Source of the DNA: Manduca sexta
Lineage: Eukaryota > Arthropoda > Insecta > Lepidoptera > Sphingidae
Reading direction: 5' to 3'
DNA length: 64,000 nucleotides
Assembly (NCBI RefSeq): GCF_014839805.1
Contig: NC_051142.1
Span: forward strand, 16,090,589 to 16,154,588
A program made the translations under genes and the position numbers. The notes below the pieces were generated by a model, which was not told the origin of the DNA, ran no database searches, and saw nothing but the letters and a program-made list of their open reading frames with translations. Shown here in pieces: positions 1 to 55,720 of this stretch (positions are counted from its first letter, which is position 1; every line of letters begins with the position of its first letter).

Positions 1-168
1 CTTCCCATGATGTGATAGGGGACGAGCCTATCTCCATATCGAGGACAAATTCCAGACTGCAGGCTGATACTGAGCAGAAAAATTAAATATTTCTTTTCCC
101 GATCGAGGATTTGAACCCGGGACCTTACAGCTAAATCGTACCGCGTACGCAATACACCACCGCGGCAG
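1..168 (-). repeat. tRNA-headed SINE, family C, truncated by window edge
   Basis: Read on the minus strand, this has a tRNA-like head with a B-box-like segment (reverse of 'gatttgaacccgggacc', about 109-125), followed by a body that also occurs at 27097-27270, 42408-42660 and 44085-44330. Its 3' part lies before base 1. It is a retroposon and not a tRNA gene, because the tRNA-like part has no acceptor stem and continues straight into the SINE body. Confidence 0.7.
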
Positions 169-4816: not shown

Positions 4817-6123
4817 CCTAGTCTTGCCATAAATATTGTAATAAAGAAAAAAGAAAATTGTTAACTGCAAATAACATTTATTACTTTTACAGTGTGTCAG
4901 TTTAATACATAAATATAAAACAATTAAAAATATAAAAAGCTTATTCGAAGTGGTCTCCATTGGCTGCAATACAGTCCTTTAAACGATGAGGCCAGTTATC
5001 AATAGAAGCACGCACTCTTTCCATGGGAAAATTCTTCACTGCCAATCGTATAGATTGTTTTAGGGACTCCAAATTATCATGGCGTTTAGAGCAAGCTGTA
5101 CTCTCTAAAACTGACCACAAATCATAATCCAGCGGATTAAGATCGGGACTAGACGACGGCCAGTCTTCAGCTCTGATGAAGTCCGAAACGTTCGATTCCA
5201 ACCAAGACTGCGTGGACCGAGCTTTATGACCCGGCGCCGAGTCTTGCTGGAAGGACCATACTTGGTTATTGAACATGGTGATGTTAAGGGGCTTAACTAC
5301 CTTCTCAAGAATGGTATCTTGATACACTTGTGCCGATGTTTTGATACCTTTTTCACAAAAATATGGCTCAGTCACTCCTTCATAGCTAACACCCCACCAA
5401 ACCATCACTGAAGTCGGATAATGTCCACGTTGCACTCTGTCGACTAATTGGGAAGCTTCCTTAGAGCTTTGAGCATAAATACGGTCATTTTGTTTGTTAA
5501 AATGTTGCTCAATTGTAAAAATTTTCTCATCCGTAAACAAAATTTTTCTGTGACCTCCCTTTGCGTACCGCTTCAGTAGTTGTTTCGATTTTACCACCCT
5601 ATTCTTCTTTAAATTATCAGTTAAGAAATGGCCAGTGCGTCTCTTATAGGCTGCAAGTCCTAAGTCATCTTTTAAAATACGCGACATGGTTCTAGGTGCT
5701 ATCTTCATTTCCCGAGATAAAATCTTTTGCTTTCGGACAGGATTTCTTCGAATTCTTTCCCTTACTGCTTTGACCACCTTTTTCGTACGAACACTACGTG
5801 GACGGCCAGATCTTTTTCTGTCACAAACAGAGGAGGTCTCATTGTACCTATTAATAGCCCGGTACACAAACATTTTACTAATACCAAGTGTATGGAGAGT
5901 TTTAAAAATTGCATTTGGCTCCATACCTACTTTGTGTAATGCTATCACAGCGATTCGGTTCTCTTTATCACCCCACACCATTTTAATATCGCAAAATATT
6001 TTACAATGTATTGGCGCCAAAATGAGAAAACACAATGAACAATCGTATAAAAATGACAGATTCGAAATTCAAATGTAATATTTTTTTATAATTAAGTGTA
6101 ACAGTATTTATGGCCAGACTAAG
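4817..6123 (-). mobile_element. Complete mariner-type transposon (maT / DD37D group)
   Basis: The 1307-bp element is bounded by imperfect terminal inverted repeats. The left end starts cctagtcttgccataaatat (4817) and the right end read in reverse starts cttagtctggccataaatac (from 6123), about 3 mismatches in 23. TA dinucleotides flank both ends (4815-4816 and 6124-6125), the target-site duplication expected of Tc1/mariner elements. It contains a single uninterrupted transposase ORF on the minus strand. Length and layout are those of an intact mariner, so it is probably young. Confidence 0.9.
4941..5981 (-). CDS. mariner (maT-like) transposase, intact
   Basis: Cut-and-paste transposase of the mariner element that surrounds it. 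I start at the Met of MVWGDKEN (codon 5979-5981), giving 346 residues, the usual mariner length. An upstream in-frame Met at 6033-6035 would add 18 residues and is less likely. The N-terminal half looks like paired helix-turn-helix domains joined by a GRPRSVRT linker (GRPR-type motif, residues about 60-67), which bind the inverted repeats. The catalytic residues are D151 (in LFTDEKIF), D247 (in FQQDSAPGH) and D285 (in SPDLNPLDYDLW). The 37-residue gap between the last two makes it DD37D, the maT signature known from silkworm and other moths. No stop or frameshift breaks it, so it could encode active enzyme. Frequent TTATTT/AATAAA-like sequence lies just past the stop (TAA, 4941-4943). Confidence 0.9.
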   Translation of the reverse strand: MVWGDKENRIAVIALHKVGMEPNAIFKTLHTLGISKMFVYRAINRYNETSSVCDRKRSGRPRSVRTKKVVKAVRERIRRNPVRKQKILSREMKIAPRTMSRILKDDLGLAAYKRRTGHFLTDNLKKNRVVKSKQLLKRYAKGGHRKILFTDEKIFTIEQHFNKQNDRIYAQSSKEASQLVDRVQRGHYPTSVMVWWGVSYEGVTEPYFCEKGIKTSAQVYQDTILEKVVKPLNITMFNNQVWSFQQDSAPGHKARSTQSWLESNVSDFIRAEDWPSSSPDLNPLDYDLWSVLESTACSKRHDNLESLKQSIRLAVKNFPMERVRASIDNWPHRLKDCIAANGDHFE

Positions 6124-21282: not shown

Positions 21283-24200
21283 ATGTTGAAATGTGTGTTA
21301 TACATTATCTTCGCTGCATCATCTCTTGTTGAAATTCATTCAAAGGTAGGTAAATATAAGTGTTAAACAAATAATATATTTCAATGTACAAATGGGAACA
21401 GAAAATGGGTATGTCTTGAGATCCTTATGACGATTTTTTTTATTCTTGATTTAGGGAGCTTGGCCATTATTTCACGACTATGTCGCTCCGTATGTCCGCT
21501 TTTACCGGTGCCTACTCACTTTTCATGATATCATCAGATGAACAAACGAAAAATTACGTTTTTTTTATTTAAACTTATGTAAAATATTTTTATTTTTGCA
21601 GCCGGTAAGTTTTCCTCGAGTCTTGCATCGATGTTTAATTATACATTTAATTTAAATTAAGATATTCTTTTGTTACTTAGACAATCTAAACATTAGTACC
21701 TATAGTCGTGACTTTCAGTCGGTTTGTTTATTTGTTCCGTATATCCTACCTTTAAAACGGCTGGACTGATTTTTTGGGACTTTTACTAACAGGTAGCAGA
21801 CATTTTAAGAGTAAGTTGGCAACTTTTGCTTCTGAAATATTTAGGGTTGCGAGAAAAAGAACTCTATTCGTAACTGGCGGGTAGTTCGATTTGGAATAAT
21901 GCTTCATGACCTTTTTATTATACAAAAAAATTAACAGTTGTGGATCTCGTACTTAATACGTGAAAAGAATTTAACGCGAGCGTAGCTGCTAGTAAAAAGT
22001 AATAATATATTCTTACATAATATTATAAAAGAAAGTCCCCTGACATATCTGTCTATCTATCTGAACGCAAAAACTCAATACCTAACTACTGCATTGATTC
22101 AGATGAAATTTGGTATGGAAATAGTTTGTGACTGTTCAGTTGGATGGACATAGGCTATTTTTAACCTGAAAAATATATAGCGGGGCTTATCTCCCGGAAA
22201 AACTTTATCACGCAAGCGAAGCTGCGAGCCAAAAATAATAATGATTAATAGATAAAATCATAACTTCATCATTACTAATATTTACAGTAAGTAACAAACT
22301 TCACTAAGCGGGCCTACTATACTTTGATAGATGAACACAGATTGCCTCAGATAAGCCGTTCGAAATACCTTTCGATTGTTTTTCATTTGAACGATCACTA
22401 TTCAGTCTGGTACTCTAACACCAACAAAAACTGAATCGCATAATCTAGAAACCTTATATATCCTGTGAATGTATGGATTATAGGAAGAAACGACTTCTGA
22501 GGCGGCGGCAGAATCACCTAGCGCAGACGTTGGTGCAGCCGACACAACCACTGCTGCGGCAGGACAGGATAAAACCGATGGTGAATCAGTAAGTATCGTG
22601 GTTATGGGCAGCCCTGTATCTAGGAGCATCAGCCAGGGCCCATGCCCCGGGCGGCGAATTTAGACGACGGCAAATTCAAACTTGACAGACGAATATACAA
22701 CTCATTATTAACGCAACTTTGACTACTAAGACATCCAGTATATTACACACATAAATTATTTCCCGCGCGGCGCGAAATGATGATGATGATGGCAAAAGTA
22801 AAATATAAGTGGTCATCATCAAATATTCAAGATCCGGGGCTGGTTATATGGCTGGCTGGTCTGTGTGGAAAAATTTAAATAAGCATTCACTATATATATG
22901 TAAAAAACTGTAAAAAAATATAATGTACTATTGATTGTTATCCCTAATAAATGAAAAAAAAACAAGCTCGTGGCCTATTCGTTGGGCCTTAGACCCTTTT
23001 CTTTTTTATAATTAAAAAGATGATAAGTAGTAAGCATTTTTCATACGACAAACAATATAAACATGGTTGCTTTGCCGCCTTTTGAAATGGAAATCGTATT
23101 TTAAGAACCAAAAGCAGTAGGTAATCCTATCAGATAATGTGTTTTTGTTAGTAAGAACTGTACCTAAGTACGTATGACAGAAAATGCAAATGTCTGAAAG
23201 ATAGGGACATACATTTTTACTATGATCAACTTTTTTTATGTTACAGACAACCGTGGTAAGTTTTTATAAAATTATCAAACCATTTAGTCTTGCCGTGGTC
23301 TGGACTTTACATGGCTGTGAACCCAAAATATAATCAATAACTCTAATTTGTAAAATTTATGTTAGGGCATCCACCGATTATCTATCGATGATTTTGCTAA
23401 TGTCGAGTAATAATAGCACATACAAAACAATAAATACGAATTTCCAGAATTCAAATGTCATCCCCTACATGTAGGAGTTTCTTATGGCCATAAGGCCATT
23501 GGCCATTTTACACTAGGTAAAACTTTTTTTCCTATAAAATCTCCGTAGGATCGCTTGTATGACAATAATGGCTTGCCAAAAAAAAATTAAATATACAGGG
23601 TATGACAAAATAACTACTACTCCTTAAACATTTTGTTTTTCAGGCAAGTACTGACGCAGTAAGTAGCACTTGTATGGAGACGATTAAAAATAAAATTCAA
23701 TATTGGAATAACTGGAACAAGTGAAATTAATATTTTTCCATTTTACGATGTTCCACTTTATATTTATAGGGCAGTGACAATACTACTACGGTATGTATGA
23801 AATTAAACTAAATTATTTTTAAGTTAAAAACTAATATAGGATACCAACTAGTGGCGAATGATAAAATTCCCGTAAGAGATACCGATACATCTTGTATGTA
23901 CTAATATGCATAAATGGGGTCTGGAAATCGTTCCTATGGTAATTAGATTTTACATAAATTACGAAAGGGAAGCCGGTAGTAATCGGCTTTATATGGACCC
24001 GTCGCCACTGGTACCAACTTATTTTCTTTTATTAATGTGGACCCTGATTGGTGGTAAAGCGACACTAGAAAGAACGTCTGCTCGGTCTAGTGTCACGATG
24101 CCTTCCTACCTACATTCTACAATTTATTTTTATAATCAAAGTGCTGGCTAATGATAGAACTAATTTGGTATCTGATTTTCATTGGATTTCGATTTTATTT

Positions 24201-27200
24201 TCAGTTAGAGCAAGCATTTGTAAGTACTTTATAATGATGTATATTCGGCTTAGCTATGATAGATTGATTGAATAGTAAAGAATACAAGTGCGTAAACAGA
24301 TTATACTTGAGTAGTTGACAACCTTTTTTAATACATTTATCAAAAATATATGGAATACAAAATCTAATGGAAAAATAATTTTTAAAATAATAAAAAAATA
24401 TATATGGCTTAGAAATTTGTTGGAATAGGTAGTTGTCGAATGACAGATGTAGCAAATTGCTTCACCATGCTCCCACATTTGCTCTTAACAATTTGTAATT
24501 ATGAATAACTGCTTTCACAGAAGAATTTCATTACCGTGTTAGTTTTTATTAAATCTATACTAATATTATAAAGCTTGTTTGTATTAAAGCGCTAATCTCG
24601 CGCTTACGGAACCGATTTTGATTTTTTTTTTCACTATTAGGAAGCTATATTACTCCTTACTGCTATATGGTACTTTTTATCTTGAGAAAATATAAAGCAG
24701 GACTTTTATCACGCGAGCGCTGCTGTGAGCAAAAGCTAGTATTAAATAACTCACAAAATCAAATTTAGAAAAATACCCTACCCATAGTAATTTTATGCAT
24801 AAACTATTTGCCAAGTTATTCGACGAATTACTGACATAAGACAGCCGTACCGGCCAGATAAAAATATGAATTCGGTCTTAACAACAAAGTGTTGCTTATT
24901 TCAGCAACCGTGTTTAAATACCATTCTTATCTACTTATTACTTCTGTTTTTAGCTAACAGTAAGTAATTCCTAATAAATTAAGATTAATATTCAAAATCT
25001 CTTGTGATGGGAATATGTCCGATATACGCTTCCATAAGAACAGACAGCATCCAAACAAAAGCACACCATATTGATTCATTCGGAAGAGTCGTTTTCGTAG
25101 AACAGCCGACGTTAATTTGACGTCTGCCTAGGGATGCTATGGATCCTGGTGGTCCTCCACTTGGACGGATCTATAGACGCTCACTATCAGCAGTAATCAA
25201 AATACTGAGCTATTCATTATTAAAATAAAGTAAAAAGTGAATGACCCAATTACCTTGGGGAAATACAAATAAAGTTTGATAATGCGTAGGTACTTCCGAG
25301 CAACCTTGCAAGGTATCCTTTTTATTTATATGAATACAAAAATAAATGTATTTTTTATACAATCAATTTCTTCATTTACAGCTCGGTGTAAGTGTTCAGA
25401 TATTTAAAATGAAAACAATTTATTGTTATGGTGATACAAAAAGTTTATACAAATTAGTTACGAAAATTTATTTTTAGCCCAATGATGTAAGTATTTAACG
25501 GACAAAGGTGAAAAGGTTAAGAATTTAATTAAAAATAAAATGAATAATATATCGGTTTCAGACTGCCGTAAGTATATTGTATTCATTAATTTTTACAGAC
25601 AGCGACAATGCCAAATAACTGATAATTTATATCCGTATTATATAACGCTGAAGAGTTTGTTTGTTTGTTTGAACGCGCTAATCTCAGGAACTACTGTTTC
25701 GGATTGAAAAAATATTTTAGTGTTGGATAGTTCTTTGTTCGTGGAAGGCTATAGTCTATATCATCAGGGTACGACCAATAGAAGCGGAGCATCAATAAAA
25801 AATGTTGCAAAATTTGTCCCGTACAAATGTATTCCTCTTGAGATCTTCCGATGCGTGCGCTCCGTAAACAGTTAAAGTCGCTATCCCGGGAAAACTTTTT
25901 CATGCGGGCCGAGCCGCAGGCAAAATCTAGTTATAATATATAAGTAAATAGGGCGCCATACATACGACGTACTTCATGGCGCCGATGCGTTGTCGACATT
26001 TTGTTGTCATACAATTACTGTAATTCGTCGACAGCCGTATTATTAATAATGAACCTTTATATTTTTTACCTTCGTAAAACCGATAGTTTCTTCAACAAAC
26101 TACTGAAATATTCAACTGCTCTACGGGATAATGGCATTGCCGGTTAGCCAGCAGAGTGCATGTAAGGTTGACTTGAATTTTAAAAGCATCAGAAACAGCG
26201 TTTTTAATAAAATAAAAAATATTACTTTCAGCCTGAGGTAAATAATAAAGAACTACCTTAACGATTATAAGATAAAATTACATCGTTATGTCACATCTTG
26301 TGTACAGAGATCCGGACGTATATCAGCAACATATCGTCGTATCGAATCATAAGCTCGGCGAATCGTAGATCCGTCTTAATAAATCAAATTCACCTTTGGG
26401 TAGGGTAGCTTATCAGCTAAGACGCTCTCAAATTAAACTCAATATCTTATAATGCGATATCTCGCATTTTAGACGGAAACTGGGTTGCATTTATAAACAC
26501 TTCCCTTAAATACATACTTGAATCAATAATTTTATGTATATCACTGTAAATAAAAAATATTTCTTTTTTAAATTAATTGCAGAATGTGGTACGTAAAGAA
26601 TTAATGTTTGGTTTAGTATAAATTTAAATAAAAATTAGGACAATGACATAAATAGTTCAATAGATAAAATGAATATTAATTTAAAGGTTATTTTTGTAGG
26701 TAACGGTAAGTTAAAATAATTTGAACTGTTTTTCTTTAACATTTTGAGGATAGCGTTATGGTTTACAGAGTTATTATTCATTGTATTAACATGTATTGTA
26801 TTTGATTTAATACATATTGTGTAACTGTTTGTTGTCTTAAGATTAATAAATTATAATCATGATATAAAATAAATTAAGTACATTTATCGAAACTTTAGCA
26901 AAATAATAAAATCAATTATCATTTGCAGGATCGTTACGTAAGATGTTTATTTTGATTTGTTTTTAATTATGTGCTTTTTTATATGCGATCTCTTTATAAT
27001 TAAAAATAATGTTATTTAATATTTTTCTGTTTTTTTCATGTTACTTGCTGTCAACATTGATGGTAAGATAGTACATATTTTGCATTACAATAATGATTGC
27101 CACGATGGCGTAGTTGTATTACGGTTTGAAAGTGCCGGGGCCCCGGGTTCAATCCCCGGGACGAAAAATACATGGCGAAAGGTGGGTGCACCAGTTGCGC

Positions 27201-30200
27201 TTCCACCTATCTCTTCGGAGACAAAAGATTCTCTCTCTGAGATATATTATGTCTCATATCGAACAGAGTCATTCACACTGGTGCGTCCTTTTATAATATT
27301 ACTTGATTGAATATGTAAATTTACCATGGCCAAATATGTATTTTCAGATAAAGGGGGTAAGTTTGACTCTACCATGAGTTTTGAAAGATAAAAAAAATAT
27401 CAGCCAATAAGAAATACCGTCGGCTATAATTAAACGCATTTTATTAACCAAGGTTTACCGTTTGTTGTGTAAAACCTTGTACACCTAGAACTTTAAGGGC
27501 AAGATGCCCCACTGGTCTAAAACCTTTCAAAAAGGTGTGAGATCCATAGACTTGTGAGACTCGGTACGTTACATGTCACGTTTTAAATGAGACTATAAAT
27601 ATTCCGATTACGAATATTAAGATAAAAATGAGCCGGGATACAAAATAATGATCATAATTTTATATTCGCAGCAACCTGTAAGTATTATATTTGTATTATT
27701 TTATACAATTGCATCTCGAGACAAGCAGAACGCTCAACTACCCTTAAACTCTGCAAATGGCATCAAAAACTTTCATCGTCATCGCTGCATGCTTCTATAA
27801 TAGTCTTATCATAATGATACTCAATCAGTCTCACTTCACACCCACGTCTCACTTCTCTGCCGAACGTAGACCTCCCCAAGTAAGCGCCAACCATACCGGT
27901 CTTAACCATTCGCTACCTACCCCCTTTTTTAATTCGTCGGTTCATTATGTAGCGGGTACCACAGATGTAAATGTCTTGACCAGCTATGACGCTCTCTAAT
28001 GTTTAGATAACAGCTATAATATTAAAAATCATGGATTTTGTGAGTGTAGAACTGTAAGATTGAGCAATGATTTGAGCAGTTAGTGCAGTAAAACATTAGC
28101 AAAATTAACTATGTTTGCCAGTGTAAAAGCCTGACTTTTTTCAAAAGCTAACCCCAGGCAATAAAAATTGCCGTAATTCACATATCGCGGCCAACTTAAT
28201 AGAAAACAAAAACTTAGACAAAAGTACCTAAATAAACCTAAAAGGGAAGCCGGTAGGAATCGGGTTGTTTGGACGCTTCGCCACTGATGCTTGTTATCGT
28301 CCATCGTAGGCTGTATACATCGTTTATACTTAGAACATTATAACCTAATAATGGAAATCTGGGAAACGACAAAGCATGAAACGTAACCACGCTGGTAACA
28401 AAAGACATCTTCAGAGGTAATCTGTAACCAGCTAGAAAGATCTGTGGTGTTAAAAAAGAGGTGTGTATTTAAATAAATCCTCCGTATATCCAAAGTGCAC
28501 CGCAAAGCGCTTGAAAACATAAAACATAAATAAATTATTTTGCCGGTTGATTAGATTTTATCTGATAGTATGAGTTAAGTGAGAACACTGATGAATATGG
28601 CTATTTTATGTACTGTTTTCGTTCCAGCTCAGTGTAAGTTTCCTATTTTTTTACTGCAGTCAAATAATTTCAAGTAACAGTTAAGCTTCTCAAAAAATAA
28701 TAAAATCTAAATATATCAAATTATTATACTTATCAATTGATGTATTTATTAAATATTATTTTCCTGTTATTTCAGACAAGTGTAAGTGAAACGTGTAATT
28801 ATAAAGTTAAATTAATCATAGATAATATTCACAAACATATTATTGTAAAGTAACTTATAAATGCTAGTCAAACCAAATTGTTAGAAAAACCAGTTTCCAT
28901 GTTTTTTTTCTTCAGTAAAATGCATGAATATCCTTAAATACATTATAAATAACAATCTTTTTATTTATTTATATTATGTTTTTTTTCTGTATAGGAAGTC
29001 GTAAGTACCGCATTTATAATATAATTATGATTTCATCATAATTAAGTATTTTACAATATTAATTTAGTTTGGCTACTTTTGCAGTTGAACGTACGTACTT
29101 ACCTATATTTTAATTTCAATTACAATGTCTTTTTTTTAATATTATGTTGCTTTAATTTTTATTATATTTTTACAGTTTACTGTAAGTTTTTAGTCATTTG
29201 TTATTTCTACCTGCGTCATTGCTTCTATAAATATTATACCATGAATTAGCAAAATTTTTATTTGTCTAATTTTATTTTTAGCTCCAGGTAACATTTTACG
29301 TAACATTATGCTCACAAATATAAAAACAATACAAATATCTATAAAACAATAGAAAACAAATAACAAAACGATTAAAATTATTATTTTCTAGAAAGGTGGA
29401 GTAAGTCTTATTACATTTTTTAATATTATGTTTTCTTTTAACTAATATATTAATTGTTGACATTTAATTTTATTTTTCAGGGCTTGGTGAGCTCATACTT
29501 TTTATTGAAATAATTACGCCTTATCATGTAAGATACGGAACTATTAGATCTAAAAAAAGAAAAAGAAAATTAAAATAAATACTGTTTATTTTCAGCAAGT
29601 TGTAGTAAGTTTTATTATTATATAAAAAAATATTTGTCAGTCGCTGAATTTTTATTTTCGACTATTTAAAATAAATAGTAATATATTTTATACTTCCTTA
29701 ATTTCAGACCGAGGTAATAAATATGAAATAATAGTATATCTAAGTTTTTTATTTTATATACCCTATGTACAGACGTATTGAAAACAATTTTATTTTTTCT
29801 AGCAATGGGTAATTAATTATTCTGAAAGTAACTATAAGTGTTTCTTGAATAAAATATTTGTACAAATGAAATTAAAATTATTTTTTATTCATTTCAGTGG
29901 ACGGTAAGAATGTTTTTACTATTGAGTTATGTTTGTGCCACAAGAATAGATATTAATTTGTTTTTATTTATTTTCTACAGTTCTATGTAAGTTGTCTATT
30001 ACTATTTAAATTTATTTGTGTATTTTAATAAATTTACTAAGTAATCACTCCTTTTTGTTACAGACTCGAGTAAGTACATATTTTTTTTTTATTAAAAAAA
30101 AATTACACCATGATCCCTTAACTGTTTTTCTCTGTTCTTTTTTTTAATAATGCGGTAATAATTAATGTTTCAGCCTGCAACAGTAAGTATATTAAACATA

Positions 30201-31149
30201 ATAAGTACAAAATAAAACACCGATATTAACATATTTATAGCAGAAAAATAAGCAAGTAAACTTTATTATAAGTCCGGTCTTTTGGAATCACATCCGGAAG
30301 GCTGATTTCAATTTAGAAATGGAATTTGGAATCCCATTCCAGAAAGCTTAAAATTAAGTCTGCATCGATCTCACACATATTATAAATTTTAATATAACTC
30401 AAAGATAAAATAAATAAGATATAAACAATTTTTTTTTGTTACAGAAAGTAAGTATTGTTATTTCTAATTACAATTTCATGGATTACTTACCATTTAGGCC
30501 AAACTTTATTCAGTAAATTTTCAAAACAAATGTTAATGTTAAGTACAGATGTTTTGTTGTCAATTTATATATTATTTATATTTTTTTACAGCCTGGAGTA
30601 AGTAAAAAAGAATGCAACTGATGGAATAATATTATATTCTTTTTCATATATTTTACAAAATAATGCCGCGGTTTTTTATTTTCCTGGCGTGGCTATATTA
30701 AAGATTTTAACGCAAGAATCATCGCGTTATCTCATTTCTATATATTAAATTTAGAAATATATTAAAAATGTTTACCACTCCTGCCTACTGCAAACAAACC
30801 TACTACACCAATAATTTATGTTTCAGTGCATCTGCCTGACTAGAGGTCCTTTGCCGAAATTCAAATTGATTGGAAACATACACTTTCCTAAAATCAAGGT
30901 AATGTTATCAGACTTCTATCTTCAAAAAGTCCAAATACTACAAAACAAACCCCATTGCTATTAATGAAGAAGCTGGCAGTTACTATAGAAAAACAGCAAT
31001 TGGAACCTCAGAACTGGAACAGTAAAGACGATTGGATGTTTCAGGTGACGCCTGGACGGTACGTGACGGTGCCCACAGAAGCAACGTCTACTCTGTGCCC
31101 ACCCTGCGACTGCAGCAGTTGCCCGCCACATCCCATGTACGAGCCATAG
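21283..31149 (+). CDS. Micro-exon gene: predicted secreted 194-residue protein from 36 symmetric exons
   Basis: No family was recognised. I infer 36 coding exons, each bounded by AG and GT, all multiples of 3 nt, all in phase 0 and free of stops, totalling 585 nt. Exon 1 (21283-21345) encodes a signal peptide starting MLKCVLYIIFAASS. Exon 3 (22484-22588) encodes 35 Ala/Thr/Glu/Asp-rich residues. The middle is built from exons of 3, 6, 9, 15 and 21 nt. Exon 35 (30827-30898) is Lys-rich and starts CICL. Exon 36 (31045-31149, stop TAG) ends with a Cys/Pro cluster, LCPPCDCSSCPP. The donor is exactly GTAAGT in 23 of 35 introns, and acceptors have strong pyrimidine tracts. The product is probably secreted; its role is unknown. 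The layout recalls schistosome micro-exon genes and aphid bicycle genes, which encode variable secreted proteins. That is an analogy of architecture, not shown homology. An acceptor-like site just before the ATG (ag at 21271-21272) suggests an upstream non-coding exon. Any single exon could be skipped without a frameshift. Confidence 0.88.
21705..21995 (-). repeat. REP-D fragment in micro-exon gene intron 2
   Basis: 'cggctggactgattttttgg' followed by 'taacgcgagcgtagctgcta' is the reverse-oriented REP-D pattern. Confidence 0.55.
22035..22240 (-). repeat. REP-D fragment in micro-exon gene intron 2
   Basis: 'gaacgcaaaaactcaatacc', 'agatgaaatttggtatggaa' and 'tcacgcaagcgaagctgcga' match the complement of the copy at 31228-31866. 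Confidence 0.65.
24565..24745 (-). repeat. REP-D fragment in micro-exon gene intron 7
   Basis: 'gtttgtattaaagcgctaatctcgcgctta' type start and 'cacgcgagcgctgctgtgag' end, in reverse orientation. Confidence 0.65.
25650..25935 (-). repeat. REP-D copy in micro-exon gene intron 11
   Basis: 'gaagagtttgtttgtttgtt', 'cgcgctaatctcaggaacta' and 'gccgagccgcaggcaaaatc': a fairly complete reverse-oriented copy of the element at 31228-31866. Confidence 0.75.
27097..27270 (+). repeat. SINE family C in micro-exon gene intron 15
   Basis: tRNA-like head 'tgccacgatggcgtagttgt' and B-box 'gggttcaatccccgggacg', then 'gtgcaccagttgcgcttcca' shared with 42408-42660 and 44085-44330. A 90-codon ORF crosses it by chance. 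Confidence 0.75.
30827..31149 (+). other. Micro-exon gene, 3' module: exons 35-36
   Basis: Exon 35 (30827-30898, 72 nt) encodes 24 basic residues (137-160) starting CICLTRGPLPKF. Exon 36 (31045 to stop at 31147-31149) encodes 34 residues (161-194) including PGRYVTVP and four closely spaced cysteines in a Pro-rich setting. With the two cysteines of exon 35 these could form disulfides. The intron between them is 146 bp with donor GTAATG and acceptor TTTCAG; read-through of that intron would hit a stop. Confidence 0.85.
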
Positions 31150-31166
31150 AAGACATTGGACTATAA

Positions 31167-31172
31167 AATAAA
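31167..31172 (+). terminator. Polyadenylation signal of the micro-exon gene
   Basis: AATAAA 18 bp after the stop codon, a short 3' UTR. It fits the end of the transcript and supports the assignment of the terminal exon. Confidence 0.7.
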
Positions 31173-31227: not shown

Positions 31228-31866
31228 AACTAGCTTTTGCCCGCGGCTCCGCCCGCGTTATAAAGTTTTTCAGGCTAAAGTTTTCCGTTATAAAAGTAGT
31301 AGTTTCCCGGGAGCCTATGTTCTTCCCAGGGTCTCAGACTGTCTCCATACCAAATTTCATCTTAATACGTTGGGTAGTTTTTGAGTTTAACACGTTCAGG
31401 CAGACAGATGCAGCGGGGGATTTTGTTTTATAATATATTTTTTAGAACTTTTTAAGTGGAACAATTCCGTCATACATCATTGTTGCATAACTTTAACCGT
31501 TTACGCAGCGAAGGCAACGGAAGCTCTCAAAACTAATAATGTTCCCCGTTTTTGCAACATGTTTCATTACTGCTCCGCTCCTATTGGGTATAGCGTGATG
31601 ATATATAGCCTATAGCACTCCACGAACCAAGTACTATCCAACGCAAAAAGAATTTTTCAGTTTGGACCGGTAGTTCCTGAGATTAGCCATTACTGCTCCG
31701 CTCCTATTGGGTATAGCGTGATGATATATAGCCTATAGCACTCCACGAACAAAGGGCTATCCAATGCAAAAAGAATTTTTCGGATTGGACCGGTAGTTCT
31801 TGAGATTAGCGCGTTCAAACAAACAAACAAACAAACAAACTCTTCAGCTGTATATAATAGTATAGA
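31228..31866 (+). repeat. REP-D, best-preserved copy, with internal tandem duplication
   Basis: Starts 'aactagcttttgcccgcggc' and ends 'caaacaaacaaacaaactct' then 'gtatataatagtatagata', a pattern very common in moth and butterfly genomes. Inside it, about 123 bp is repeated in tandem (31565-31687 and 31688-31810, both starting cattactgctccgctcctat). The class is unresolved, and I see no coding capacity. Confidence 0.75.
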
Positions 31867-32166: not shown

Positions 32167-34484
32167 TTACAGCGAAGTTCTGGAATCCTTCTTCTTCATG
32201 TCTTTAGAACCATTGCTAGATGTGAATTCCGAAGCACACGACATATGGATCAGTTCCAAATCTAGACCTTCTTTTGACCTCTGTCTCCTGGGAATCGAAC
32301 AGGGTCTGGATCTCCTCGATAATAAGGATATTACATTCTTCAAAACATTGTTCTTTGAGGTTTTACTAGATATGGAAGACTTAGTAACCGATGAGGATTC
32401 AAAGGTGTTTTCATCTGCTAAGAAGATTACCCCTCTCTCTGATAAAAAGTCATCAATTGAGTCATTGGAAAATTGCGCCTGCGCTCCTTTTTCTGTAGAA
32501 TTTGATGCGTCTTTTTTCTGGTCAAAGACATTAGTTTTTCCAGTACTTCGGAAGTTGTATGTATGGCATTTGATCTCCTTCTCTGATAAATCGCATTGAA
32601 CTTCGTGTGTGTTATCTCTGACTTTCGCATCCTTATCTCTGAGTTTCGTTTCTCTTACAACCGCCTCCCTGATCGTTGTATCTCTAACTTTGGTCCCTCT
32701 GATCTCATCTTCGAAATTAACTTTACCGTATTCACCTATTTTAGTTTCATTATATTCTGGAATCGTATCAGATTTAGGTACTCTGTCCCACTTGCGTCGG
32801 TTTAAACATTTAGTAAGAATATCATCAGAAAGACTGTATTTTGCGTGATCTTTTTGACATGCTTTGTAACATTTAATTCTTTTATCTATATTCGAAGAGT
32901 CACTTGTGAAATTAGCTTCCGTGGTCTCCGTATCTATATTACTGGTGTAAATCAGAGGCGTAGTAACAGAAGCATCTTGTCTGTAATTAAAATAAGTACT
33001 TACAACCTTCTTATTGCTGCAGCAACCACATTTTGTGAGACAATATACCATCATGCAGATTAGACCACATTGCATTAAGACAATTAGGCATAACACTATC
33101 AAGGTGTACTTGTTATTCATTAAGTATTTCATTAAATTCTCTTTTGTCAACTTCTTACATTTAGCCATCGCTTTCTCAGCTGGTGTTACATGCAGTTTCT
33201 TAGTTTCTGGGTAGAAACTGCTGTCGTAAGCCGTAACGTTATATACTTCTGTTGTTGGTCGACTATTTTTGATGATCAATACATCTTTAGCCCTTCTTTC
33301 GTTCTCTCTTAAAGACTTAATAAATTCAATGTCGTCTTTCGATATAGTTTCTTCTTTGACACATTTATTCGTCTCTGGGTTGTAAACTATCATATCTCCA
33401 TCAGAATCGGTTACACAACTGGGTACAGTAGTACACCGTTTCCTGCGTTTATCAAAATACGACTTTTGACCGTTATAATAAGAGTCACAGTTGACTGGGC
33501 TGCAGTCGTTAAAAGGGTCTTCGTCGAATCCTTGGCATGGCTTGACATCGTTAGGTATAAGCATTGTCTGCTTTTTGTTAGTCAGCCGCGTGTCAAAGTT
33601 TATTTTGATAACGTCACGCGTATTCGCTCTGGATCTGTCTGTAGGGCGTGAGTCGAGATAGAAGGAGCAGTGACCATTTCTTTCATAGGGATCGATGAGC
33701 GGAGCTATCAGTTTCATTGTCTTTTTGGTGCCTGTAATGTTGAAAAGTATTGTTAAGAATATATAAGAAATATTCACAAGAAACTGTGTTCTGACTCATA
33801 TAGCAAATTATTGACTAATGAACGAGGCAGTTTGCGAGTGACTACCGCTACCTGCTGTTATACACAATAAGCCATATACCATTACAAGTTTAATACTTAA
33901 AAGATCTATATCATATACTATGGGTGGACTAAAAATATTGTGTATCAGAAAGAAATCAAATCCTGAATAGTCGAATCTCATTAATTTCATTAGTCAAGTA
34001 CCAGTGAACGTATGAAGCAATTGAAAACGTTTTTCATACCTAATTTTTATAAGTTACGATAGCAGTACCGTATTTCTTTAATGAACTTAAATTTAATAAA
34101 CCTTTAAAACTGACGGCAAAGTTTTGCGTCTGCCATTTTCTCAGTTAATTCACTCGACTTTAAACACAAACACGGTTTTACATTCTCATAAAGAGAACAT
34201 CAGTCAACCTTTCATCACGTGATTATCTATTACTCCTTACCTTTCGGGATGACGTGATAGCATCCGCCAACAACCCTCATGACGTCACAGTCCACTCCAT
34301 CATCCAACACCAGGCAGCACGCATTAGGAGTTACTTCTACAAGCAAGTCTTCGGAACTCCCTACTTCCAAAGCGAACTGAAGGCCCACAGAAATCGGGTT
34401 CACACGCTCTAAATACACCTTTGAAGTTATCTTCTTCTCACATAAGCATAACGTTAAGTAAATAAATAAAATATATAAAAACAT
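32167..34484 (-). CDS. Predicted single-pass membrane protein, function unknown
   Basis: Two exons, 34241-34484 and 32167-33731, joined in phase 1 (PK-G-TKKTM) to give 602 residues. It starts with a hydrophobic signal peptide (MFLYILFIYLTLCLC). The ectodomain is about 275 residues, with about ten cysteines (for example CQGFDEDPFNDCSPVNCDSY and the following CTTVPSC and NKC) and sequons NVT and NPET-like sites. One transmembrane helix lies at about residues 290-313 (YTLIVLCLIVLMQCGLICMM), followed by a Cys cluster (TKCGCC) that could be palmitoylated. The tail is about 290 residues, charged and Ser/Thr-rich, with a degenerate repeat around RDTTIREAVVRETKLRD. I do not recognise the family. The topology suggests a type I surface receptor or adhesion protein. 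Splice sites are good (donor GTAAGG, acceptor ATTACAG). Confidence 0.85.
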
Positions 34485-37069: not shown

Positions 37070-39050
37070 TGAGGACCCGTCTATTTTGCCGGTCATGATG
37101 AACTTTTCTGGTCCTACATTTCCAATAAAAAGTGTAAAGTTAATTTTCCTGCTACTATGTACTACGGAAATACTTCCTCCAGCGACCCCAAAGTCATTTG
37201 TAATTTATTTTCTAATTTTTTTTGTTCAGTTTACGAGCCGTCTTCTTTCGATCCTGAAATATGGCAACCATCTGGCACTTATTCTGCTAACTCTACCTCT
37301 TTATCAAATATTTATCTCTCAAAACCTATAATACTAAGAGAAATTAAATCTCTGGATTCAACTAAAGGGGCCGGCCCTGATGGTATACCACCAACTTTTT
37401 TTAAAAATATATCTGATAGCATTTATTCTCCCCTGTATATAATTTTTAATAAATGCCTGTGTGAAGGAGTGTTTCCCGACGTATGGAAGAGAGCCTACAT
37501 TATCCCAATTTATAAAAACGGTGACAAGGCCTGCATAACGAATTACCGGCCAATCTCTATCTTGTCCACTCTGTCTAAGCTTTTTGAGAGACTCGTGCAC
37601 GCTGTGTTGTATCCCCACTTCCACCATCTCATCATACCTGAACAACATGGTTTCGTTAAAAGACGTTCCACTTCAACGAATCTCATGTTATACACGGATT
37701 ATCTTTTTGAAAATATGGATCGTAGAATTCAGGTAGATTCCGTCTATACGGATTTTCAGAAAGCCTTCGACAAGGTGGATCACAAACTACTTATGGAAAA
37801 GATTGCCTTCAATGGGATCCGTGGCAATTTACTTCGTTGGTTTGTCTCGTATATTTTCAACAGAACTCAAAAAGTTGTCCTTAACGGTCTGGAATCCGAA
37901 CAAATTATAGTCAAGTCAGGAGTCCCTCAAGGATCTATTTTAGGTCCTTTTCTATTTAATATATATGTAAACGACATAAAAAAATGTTTTATATCTTCGA
38001 AATTTTTAATGTATGCTGATGATGTAAAAATATATAAAGCTTGTAAAACTATACAAGACTGCTTACTTCTTCAAGAAGATCTCAATTTATTTAACAATTA
38101 CTGCCGTGACAACAAACTTTTTCTTAGTCTTCCCAAATGTTATTCCATATCCTTTACTAAAAATAAAAATAAAATCCATTTCAGCTACTCCTTAAATGGT
38201 ATACTCTTAAATAAAGTAGACTCTGTTCGTGATTTAGGAATTACGCTGGACTCCTCTTTGCACTTTGATAAACACATTGACATTATTGTAAGTAATGCTT
38301 TTAAGATGTTTGGTTTTGTTATGCGATCCTCGCGTGATTTCGTTCGTCCCTCTACTTTTCTATGGCTATATAAAACGTTAATAAGATCACAACTAGAATA
38401 TGCTGTACCGATCTGGAATCCCATCTACGACAAGTATAATGATAGATTAGAAATAGTCCAGAAAAAATTTATGCGCGCTATTAATTATAAATGCTTCCGA
38501 TCAAATGTCCCGTATGAGCAGCTATTAATTCAACACAAGATGCTTACTCTACAATCCAGACGTTTGCTTATTACTGCAATGATGCTACATGGTATATGCA
38601 ATAACAGATTTGACTGTATAGATTTAACAAATAAGTTATGTTATATAGTACCTAGGACTGTTATGCGACGGGAGGTGCGCGTGCCGAGGCTGTTCCACAT
38701 GGACGCATGCAGGACCAATGCCGGGGTTCGTGCGCCTACCCGTCGAATCGTCGAAATTTATAATACGCATTTCCACAGTGTTGATATTTTCTCATTTACA
38801 AAGAAAAAATTTAAAAAATCTATTTATAACTTACTTTTTACTAATGTATTTTAAACTGAATATCGCAGGCTTGAGCTTTTCTCATACTTATGACTTATAG
38901 ACGTCTGTTGCTTCTTTGTAAAGTTTTCTGTTAAACTGTGAACAGTGTTGTTGGTTACATGTTTATTAATGCAGTACATGTGTAATTTTACCCTTTACTT
39001 ATTTAATGTGTAACTGTTTTCTGTTCCTTTTGAATAAAATAAAATGATGA
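37070..39050 (+). mobile_element. jockey-type non-LTR retrotransposon, 5'-truncated
   Basis: Contains the reverse transcriptase ORF, a short 3' UTR and an 'aataaaataaaatgatga' end near 39050. No endonuclease domain was recognised upstream, so the element is truncated or its 5' part has decayed; weakly related sequence may reach back to about 36870. In-frame coding similarity begins before the first Met (HDELFWSYISNKK at about 37094). Confidence 0.8.
37157..38854 (+). CDS. LINE reverse transcriptase (jockey clade), truncated ORF2
   Basis: 565 residues from the first Met, with in-frame sequence extending further upstream. Reverse transcriptase landmarks in order: GAGPDGIPPTFFKN, YRPISILSTLSKLFERLV, EQHGFVKRRSTSTNL, catalytic DFQKAFDKVDH, SGVPQGSILGPFLFNIYVND, and the active-site YADD in FLMYADDVKIY. 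After it comes the usual thumb and a basic C-terminal region with WNP. The reading frame is unbroken over the whole RT, so the insertion is probably not very old. It would copy its own RNA by target-primed reverse transcription, but without an endonuclease domain this copy could not insert by itself. Confidence 0.9.
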   Translation: MYYGNTSSSDPKVICNLFSNFFCSVYEPSSFDPEIWQPSGTYSANSTSLSNIYLSKPIILREIKSLDSTKGAGPDGIPPTFFKNISDSIYSPLYIIFNKCLCEGVFPDVWKRAYIIPIYKNGDKACITNYRPISILSTLSKLFERLVHAVLYPHFHHLIIPEQHGFVKRRSTSTNLMLYTDYLFENMDRRIQVDSVYTDFQKAFDKVDHKLLMEKIAFNGIRGNLLRWFVSYIFNRTQKVVLNGLESEQIIVKSGVPQGSILGPFLFNIYVNDIKKCFISSKFLMYADDVKIYKACKTIQDCLLLQEDLNLFNNYCRDNKLFLSLPKCYSISFTKNKNKIHFSYSLNGILLNKVDSVRDLGITLDSSLHFDKHIDIIVSNAFKMFGFVMRSSRDFVRPSTFLWLYKTLIRSQLEYAVPIWNPIYDKYNDRLEIVQKKFMRAINYKCFRSNVPYEQLLIQHKMLTLQSRRLLITAMMLHGICNNRFDCIDLTNKLCYIVPRTVMRREVRVPRLFHMDACRTNAGVRAPTRRIVEIYNTHFHSVDIFSFTKKKFKKSIYNLLFTNVF

Positions 39051-54541: not shown

Positions 54542-55549
54542 GTAATGTCATTTGCTTGTTATTTTTCTTAAGTCCATAAGTTAATTATGGGTAATCTTGT
54601 AATATAGAATTCATTTATGTTATTCCAGCTCCTGTAAATATTACAGAATTGCTCAAGCTTTGGTTTCAACAATCAGATTTAGTCAAACTTTATTATTCTA
54701 TTTGAGAATTGATCCTATGTTCACCCAAAAAGCGCCACAGTACAACCGTTGCCACTAGTCCAATAAAGCATAAATTTTATCTTGCAATTTATAGCTTATG
54801 TAGCAACAGCTGTATTGTAATATATACCCACATAGTATGTACTGATACCGCAGATGTAGTAAACATGATTTGTTATCTCAAATGTTCAAACCACTTGTGT
54901 ACGAGCCACTGTAGGAAACAAAACCTGTTTATTAACTAACCACAGACTTTCCTGTTTAGTTTAGTAGCAAGTCTGCTTGCACAGGTGTAATATAATATAC
55001 ATTTATATATTTTGTCTGTGTCTCAACTGGGGTGAAAAAGTTTTTCTAAAACAAAATGTAGCCTATAGCATTCAGGAGAAATGTTGCTTTCTATTTGTGA
55101 AGATAAATCTAAATCAGTAATAGTCCTGAGATTAGTGCGTTCAAACAAAGTCTTTAGCTTTATTATATTCATATAATACATTCTTTTGTATTATAACCTT
55201 TTATATATCCAGGTAGTTAGCGTTGAAGCTAATGAGACTTTTGTTAAATGTATTATGTGACAAGGCTGATCTTATTCATGTATTTTTCCAAATGACTTCA
55301 AAACATACAATGATAATATGTTATTGTTTATATAGTAATGGCTTTTATAATGAAATTACCTATTTTATGGTCTTGAATAATTCGCTTTTGGAATTTGAAT
55401 TCTTCCATATAGTTTATGATATAGAACCATATAGGTTTTTATAAATCACTACTGCACACATCCTGTGCTGCATTAAGGGAAGAAAACTATATGTAAACAA
55501 TAATTATCTACTCACATTTCAACAGAAACTCTCAAAAGGAACAAACATT
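54542..55549. other. Putative PPP1R15 intron 1 (start) or downstream flank
   Basis: AT-rich. Contains a REP-D fragment at about 55060-55150 ('gcctatagcattcaggagaa', 'cctgagattagtgcgttcaa'). No coding exon continuing the PPP1R15 frame was found. Confidence 0.45.
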
Positions 55550-55720
55550 CTCATTTTTGCAACATTTATCGTTGATGATCCGCTCCTATTGATCATAGCG
55601 TGAAGTTATATAGCCTATAGCCTCCTGGAGAAATGGGCTATCCAACACTAAAAGAATTTTACAATTTGAACCAGTTGTTTCAGGTTTCGGGGATAAAAGA
55701 GTGAGTGTCTGTGTAATTAA
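55550..55720 (+). repeat. REP-D fragment
   Basis: 'gatccgctcctattgatcat', 'agcgtgaagttatatagcct' and 'gggctatccaacactaaaag' match the duplicated interior of the copy at 31228-31866. Confidence 0.7.

Follow-up and report, generated by a model that had tools for sequence, protein, structure and literature searches.

A 64,000-nucleotide (nt) stretch of the Manduca sexta genome (NCBI RefSeq assembly GCF_014839805.1, contig NC_051142.1, positions 16,090,589 to 16,154,588; hereafter the window, in whose numbering positions are given unless another contig is named) raises the question of whether a string of tiny, splice-flanked units at 21283–31149 of its + strand is a gene and, if so, of what kind. 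Our answer is that the locus is very probably a protein-coding gene, whose 36 exon-like units specify a predicted secreted protein of 194 residues and are all likely spliced constitutively into one main mRNA. The data support its description as a new, extreme, phase-0 micro-exon gene. The original prediction, made from the bare sequence, had called 36 ordered AG-exon-GT units on one strand here, and all of them were recovered.

The most striking feature of the locus is the size and regularity of its exons. Each unit follows YAG, except the first, which begins at ATG, and each precedes GT, except the last, which ends at TAG. In order, exons 1–18 measure 63, 3, 105, 9, 15, 21, 15, 6, 6, 9, 6, 6, 6, 6, 9, 9, 6 and 6 nt, and exons 19–36 measure 6, 6, 6, 6, 6, 9, 6, 9, 6, 6, 6, 6, 6, 9, 3, 6, 72 and 105 nt. 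Joined, they give 585 nt, comprising 194 codons and TAG with 0 internal stops. As had been claimed, every exon length (36/36) is a multiple of 3, every junction is in phase 0, the joined frame is open and 29 of the 36 exons are 9 nt or shorter; 32 do not exceed 21 nt, and 6 nt is the commonest size. Exons 8–34 form a run of 27 consecutive exons of 3–9 nt that together encode 59 residues, and the exons of up to 21 nt hold 240 of the 585 coding nt (41%). All 35 introns have GT-AG ends, with the donor GTAAGT at 23 of the 35 and acceptors ending in CAG (26/35) or TAG (9/35). The introns span 75–950 nt (median 144), those from exon 20 to exon 32, twelve in all, being 77–109 nt each, and their lengths modulo 3 are evenly spread (11, 12, 12), the exons all having remainder 0. 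The predicted product begins with a signal-peptide-like segment, continues through an E/A/T/D-rich exon 3, exons 4–7 and the micro-exon run, and closes with the product of two ordinary exons, which contains six cysteines. A poly(A) signal, AATAAA, begins 18 nt past the TAG (31167–31172), so that the proposed course from signal peptide to stop and AATAAA also stood, the start being judged by eye.

The evidence that carries the gene comes from homologous proteins. Among 5.8 billion proteins, the spliced protein matched only one, P0001 (283 residues; E 6.9e-28; 42% identity over 85%), which is encoded on a 1219-nt contig of source 'lgn', presumably the Logan assemblies of public reads. A profile built from the spliced protein and P0001 found P0002 (205 residues, on a 694-nt ENA contig; E 4.5e-37), and the trimmed family found P0003, the NCBI Chilo suppressalis hypothetical protein evm_004711 (79% identical across 28% of the query). 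The search for relatives that had been proposed was thus productive, and the match to Chilo supports the suggested lepidopteran setting. Because a 694-nt contig coding 205 residues cannot hold these introns, P0002, and probably P0001, would derive from spliced RNA. Both proteins match exons 8–34 in order, with 0 insertions in either. These exons score 103 against P0001 and 129 against P0002, compared with maxima of 56 and 59 in 2000 permutations of exon order and of 47 and 48 in 2000 residue shuffles. A micro-exon gene would be the sole reading we found to explain two unbroken proteins colinear with 27 consecutive exons of 3–9 nt, and the sequence comparison supports it.

Individual exons were called from splice signals and reading frame, and assessed by a drop-out test in which each of exons 4–34 was omitted in turn and the protein rescored against P0001 and P0002. 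Exon 1 (21283–21345), which carries the ATG and the signal-peptide-like MLKCVLYIIFAASSLVEIHSK, has the donor GTAGGT; exon 2 (21602–21604) is a single codon, P, called from splice signals and frame only; and exon 3 (22484–22588; EETTSEAAAESP...) follows a weak acceptor with 5 pyrimidines in 13. The drop-out test gives no support to exon 4 (TTV, 23247–23255), whose omission costs the P0002 score only 1, and omitting exon 5 (ASTDA, 23644–23658) lowers the P0002 score only. Since homology is weak in this part of the protein, exon 2 and exons 4–7 appear to be supported mainly by splice signals and frame.

Omission of any of exons 6–16, 18–20 or 22–34 lowers both homolog scores. The first group comprises exons 6 (GSDNTTT, 23770–23790), 7 (LEQAF, 24205–24219), 8 (LT, 24954–24959), 9 (LG, 25382–25387), 10 (PND, 25478–25486), 11 (TA, 25562–25567), 12 (PE, 26232–26237), 13 (NV, 26583–26588), 14 (VT, 26700–26705), 15 (DRY, 26929–26937) and 16 (IKG, 27348–27356). 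Exon 17 (QP, 27672–27677) is followed by exons 18 (LS, 28628–28633), 19 (TS, 28776–28781) and 20 (EV, 28995–29000), and then by exon 21 (LN, 29085–29090); omission of exon 17 or 21 lowers the P0002 score only. The remaining group consists of exons 22 (FT, 29176–29181), 23 (LQ, 29282–29287), 24 (KGG, 29392–29400), 25 (GL, 29481–29486), 26 (QVV, 29596–29604), 27 (TE, 29708–29713), 28 (QW, 29803–29808), 29 (WT, 29898–29903), 30 (FY, 29981–29986), 31 (TR, 30064–30069), 32 (PAT, 30174–30182), 33 (30445–30447), whose single K is conserved in P0001 and P0002, and 34 (PG, 30592–30597). Exon 35 (CICLTRGPLPKFKLIGNIHFPKIK, 30827–30898) is conserved in P0001, P0002 and Chilo P0003, and exon 36 (VTPGRYV...STLCPPCDCSSCPPHPMYEP with TAG, 31045–31149) is called from splice signals, frame and homology.

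Conservation differs along the protein. In a fixed alignment, exon 3 is identical at 6/32 positions to P0001 (19%) and at 10/32 to P0002 (31%), exons 4–7 at 3/20 and 4/20, exons 8–34 at 25/56 (45%) and 27/57 (47%), and exons 35–36 at 30/58 and 33/51, respectively. The values of 45–47% for exons 8–34, against 19–31% for exon 3, place the micro-exon run in the conserved core. Placed freely without gaps, exon 3 reaches at best 10/35 (P0001) and 8/35 (P0002), and its motif EETTSE recurs near the P0001 N terminus. All three full-length proteins (the window protein, P0001 and P0002) share cysteines 137, 139, 178, 181, 183 and 186, encoded by exons 35–36, in the pattern C-x-C ... C-x2-C-x-C-x2-C. A hydrophobic N terminus is apparent by eye in all three proteins, and a structure model of P0002 shows a helix at residues 2–22. 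By protein identity, therefore, the micro-exon part is conserved and not fast-evolving, and the parallel that the original prediction implied with the fast-evolving products of schistosome micro-exon genes (MEGs) and aphid bicycle genes did not hold; the analogy with those hypervariable systems should not be carried over.

On balance, we favor an account in which 27 obligatory exons of 3–9 nt supply, in steps of two to three codons, one folded and conserved domain of a lepidopteran secreted protein, the layout itself being a conserved trait unrelated to hypervariability or parasitism. The micro-exon run would form one small, conserved, possibly β-rich domain, and exons 35–36 a disulphide-bonded cysteine tail. 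In the P0002 model, the best part outside the N-terminal helix is residues 91–140 (block means 67–76), which are mostly micro-exon-coded, and at its low confidence the model places strands at 92–96, 118–126 and 132–140. The protein would be exported, and is most likely an extracellular matrix or binding protein rather than a hypervariable effector.

How such exons might be recognized is constrained by their size, as there are steric limits on both sets of splice-site factors fitting 6 nt. U1 and U2 factors probably cannot occupy a 6-nt exon simultaneously, for which reason we propose intron definition, with short introns recognized as introns and removed successively, aided by near-consensus sites. 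The strong, near-consensus sites flanking most of the tiny exons and the shortness of the introns point in the same direction. Constitutive inclusion is suggested by the full-length homologs. All 595 of the 595 possible contiguous internal skips leave the frame open; nonsense-mediated decay would thus fail to clear mis-spliced RNA, and accuracy would have to come from the sites themselves. If this account is correct, it breaks the view of such exons as alternative or as serving antigenic variation, and a single 10-kb gene becomes naturally suited to assaying how small an exon can be and still be recognized, and a test bed for 6-nt exons, on which the factors of both sites probably do not fit. 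It would also uncouple a micro-exon design from the account, given for flukes and aphids, of effectors and antigenic variation.

Several observations weigh against the gene as we describe it. Splicing in this species is predicted from the genomic sequence, and P0001 and P0002 are taken as mRNA, not intronless copies, from their length and continuity. The homologs are few (3 proteins among 5.8 billion). The P0001 score rises by 6 without exon 4 and by 3 without exon 17, and does not change without exon 5 or without exon 21; P0001 is one residue short near exon 23. Exon 3 aligns no better than residue shuffles, of which 397 (P0001) and 176 (P0002) of 1000 equal the observed score. No Pfam family matched the window protein or P0001 at E 1, and P0002 gave one match far below the cut-off; nor did any PDB sequence match at E 1. 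Structure prediction for P0002 gave a poor model (mean predicted local distance difference test score, pLDDT, 47; predicted template modeling score, pTM, 0.25), and a Foldseek search with it returned 319 PDB fold matches at E ≤10 but 0 at E ≤0.001, which we disregard. Finally, exon 16 codes IKG where both homologs show a single G, a disagreement of two residues. Swapping IKG for G alone (27354–27356) raises both homolog scores by 12, but a scoring matrix derived from the 35 acceptors of the gene itself gives the G-producing site 0.8 and the upstream CAG 11.7. The choice lies between two additional residues in this species and the use of a poor acceptor.

The alternative that survives best, although we consider it unlikely, is a MEG-like diversity generator, in which skipping of micro-exons yields many variants, perhaps of a secreted effector. 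The freedom of every contiguous internal skip to stay in frame fits this idea, as does the signal-peptide-like start, and the MEG architecture is described, in the available part of PMC4350168, as permitting variants by skipping. However, both full-length homologs keep nearly all micro-exon residues, with no insertions and one or two short gaps, and conservation is higher in the micro-exon part than in exon 3, the opposite of what a variable region would show. Nor was a second copy found. The exon 35–36 protein, searched against the whole 470-Mb genome, recovered only this locus, and 2561 bases of the locus, searched as DNA, recovered the locus itself and one 40-nt intron match; strongly diverged relatives would escape both searches. 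A scan of viral_contigs with P0003 found no relative.

A second alternative, which we regard as improbable, is that the main mRNA skips the micro-exons, joining exon 3 or 7 to exon 35, and that the included form is minor. The frame would survive this, and the Chilo gene model is consistent with it: P0003 begins MPGCQCVTRGPL (MPGC...), holds the exon 34–36 product and then runs into unrelated residues, with neither a signal peptide nor the residues of exons 1–33 (all by eye). But P0001 and P0002, both unbroken, include the micro-exon residues, and the Chilo protein looks like a faulty model, given its MPGC start, the missing signal peptide and a continuation unlike the family. Its name presumably points to an automatic EVidenceModeler call.

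Still less probable is a formerly working gene for a conserved ancestral protein that is now decaying, its locus intact by luck; exon 16 and the weak exon 3 acceptor do appear imperfect, but 36/36 frames, 35/35 GT-AG pairs and the six cysteines are kept. The weakest reading, a chance run of splice-like sites, picked for its frame from AT-rich DNA, can draw on the loosest-threshold units found across the window (5–16 per 10 kb outside the locus + strand), but, as the original prediction had argued, chance does not account for the locus: shuffles, the opposite strand and a 264-kb control all speak against it, and the colinear homologs P0001 and P0002, the weightiest point, already refute it.

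In these controls, which bear on the gene reading, a unit was an acceptor, 1–30 nt and a donor, counted without regard to frame. At a strict threshold (≥9 of 13 pyrimidines, donor score ≥3.7, 1–30 nt) the + strand of the locus holds 16 units, 16/16 divisible by 3, the − strand of the locus 0, and the remaining 54 kb of the window 6 on both strands. A middle threshold gives 24 units at the locus (21 divisible by 3), versus a mean of 3.4 and a maximum of 10 in 200 dinucleotide shuffles, and units of 3, 6 or 9 nt number 17, versus a mean of 0.34 and a maximum of 2 in 200 such shuffles. The loosest threshold gives 36 units at the locus, 26 divisible by 3 and 10 not. The 264-kb control comprised the window and 200 kb of flanking sequence on the same contig, and counted units of up to 21 nt divisible by 3. 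Its best 5-kb cluster (12 units) lies at the locus, and clusters elsewhere have at most 3. The cluster of three, 52 kb upstream, was rejected, as it consists of a 3-nt unit and two donors that share an acceptor. The − strand of these 264 kb has 56 splice-like units, with length remainder 2 modulo 3 in 27 and the other remainders in 15 and 14.

The introns were also inspected. No zero-length ratchet sites (YAG then GTRAG) occur within the locus. An origin from introners or duplicated introns was rejected, as the 35 introns are unlike one another; an all-against-all comparison gave short, weak matches only, the top-scoring of which pairs two long introns along 47 nt. Fragments of repeats lie in introns 2 and 11 and are present again at 31331–31859 and 55106–55679.

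The micro-exon gene can be compared with three known systems. MEGs are described, in the accessible text of PMC4350168, as runs of tiny symmetric exons that form most of the coding region of a gene with a predicted secreted product. The window gene shares the very small symmetric exons (36/36 multiples of 3) and, judging by eye from its signal-peptide-like N terminus, may share the predicted secretion. In contrast to MEGs, its exons of up to 21 nt hold 41% of the coding length, not most of it. MEGs are restricted to platyhelminths, whereas the sole named relative here is from the moth Chilo suppressalis; their mature part is accelerated, whereas here the micro-exon part is conserved (by protein identity only). 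No second copy was found here, and the commonest exon is 6 nt.

Bicycle genes, of aphids, phylloxerans and coccids, are likewise insect genes whose numerous micro-exons share one phase almost throughout and whose products are predicted to be secreted. Phase 2 applies to nearly every internal exon, a gene has ∼17 exons on average, at least 476 such genes occur in one aphid, and some homologs lack the CYC motif (PMC9168663); their fold is saposin-like (PMC13041983). The window gene differs in its phase 0 and 36 exons, in the absence of CYC from its 194 residues, in being one locus found in 470 Mb rather than a large family, and perhaps in fold, the weak P0002 model showing strands. Drosophila homothorax also has a 3-nt exon in an insect gene, but there, in the part of PMC7392893 available, it is an isolated, alternatively spliced micro-exon, as opposed to 27 consecutive exons of 3–9 nt. 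The window gene thus resembles MEGs and bicycle genes in layout and is a member of neither, by lineage, phase, motif, copy number and conservation.

The locus had been proposed as an unrelated or unreported insect case, and no lepidopteran micro-exon gene was found in the literature among the matches listed, most subscription journals lying outside that search. In the available text of PMC4007636, "microexon" occurs only in a reference title, and in that of PMC6405961 "very short exons" occurs only within a seroin naming rule. The gene would extend the short list of lineages that have micro-exon genes to Lepidoptera, and may rank among the densest arrays of tiny exons in any animal gene.

That standard gene finders would miss such genes had also been predicted, and the Chilo annotation, without the exon 1–33 residues, is one such case. 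P0003 is probably the ortholog, because its exon 35–36 product is closely similar to that of the window gene, although the model differs in the parts described above. A conserved protein that is present only as its last exons in one published model suggests further hidden genes, as does a second locus on another contig of the same genome (C1:3680886–3698759, − strand). This second locus has 13 stop-free units, each 6 or 9 nt long and in phase 0 (TIT, WK, GSM, NTK, RT, LYL, TRS, LH, KW, MF, KM, MT and HP), which sit among possible ordinary exons, some resembling halves of immunoglobulin-type domains by eye. In a strand control there (50 kb, units of 1–12 nt, one threshold), the − strand has 11 units, 11/11 divisible by 3, and the + strand 1, not divisible. 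Seven exon peptides from this locus gave no Pfam family over the cut-off.

Across the genome, TTNCAG-6-GTAAGT has 325 matches (161+164) and its reversed form 251 (132+119); this modest surplus suggests that other 6-nt exons exist in the genome. Places were taken from the first ∼100 of these 325 matches and the first ∼100 of 112 for another pattern; among the matches listed, four for TTNCAG-6-GTAAGT are grouped on C1. On C14, near-identical unit pairs lie 8.3 kb apart on the + strand, at 2757146 and 2765498, each with 6 nt (CGGTGC or CGGTTC) followed by 8 nt (GTATCCAC), and are perhaps a tandem gene pair with micro-exons.

Other features of the window lie around the micro-exon gene. Convergent with it, 1 kb downstream, is an open frame of 536 residues (32167–33777, − strand) that includes a hydrophobic stretch and a region rich in cysteine, and for which no Pfam family exceeded the cut-off. 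A reverse-transcriptase-like open frame of 565 residues (37157–38854, + strand; YADD by eye) is probably a non-long-terminal-repeat retroelement. An Rfam mir-2834 match at 5128–5190 (+ strand) falls within a mariner-like frame (by eye) at 4941–6035 on the opposite strand, and the mir-2834 family may for this reason be a transposon piece.

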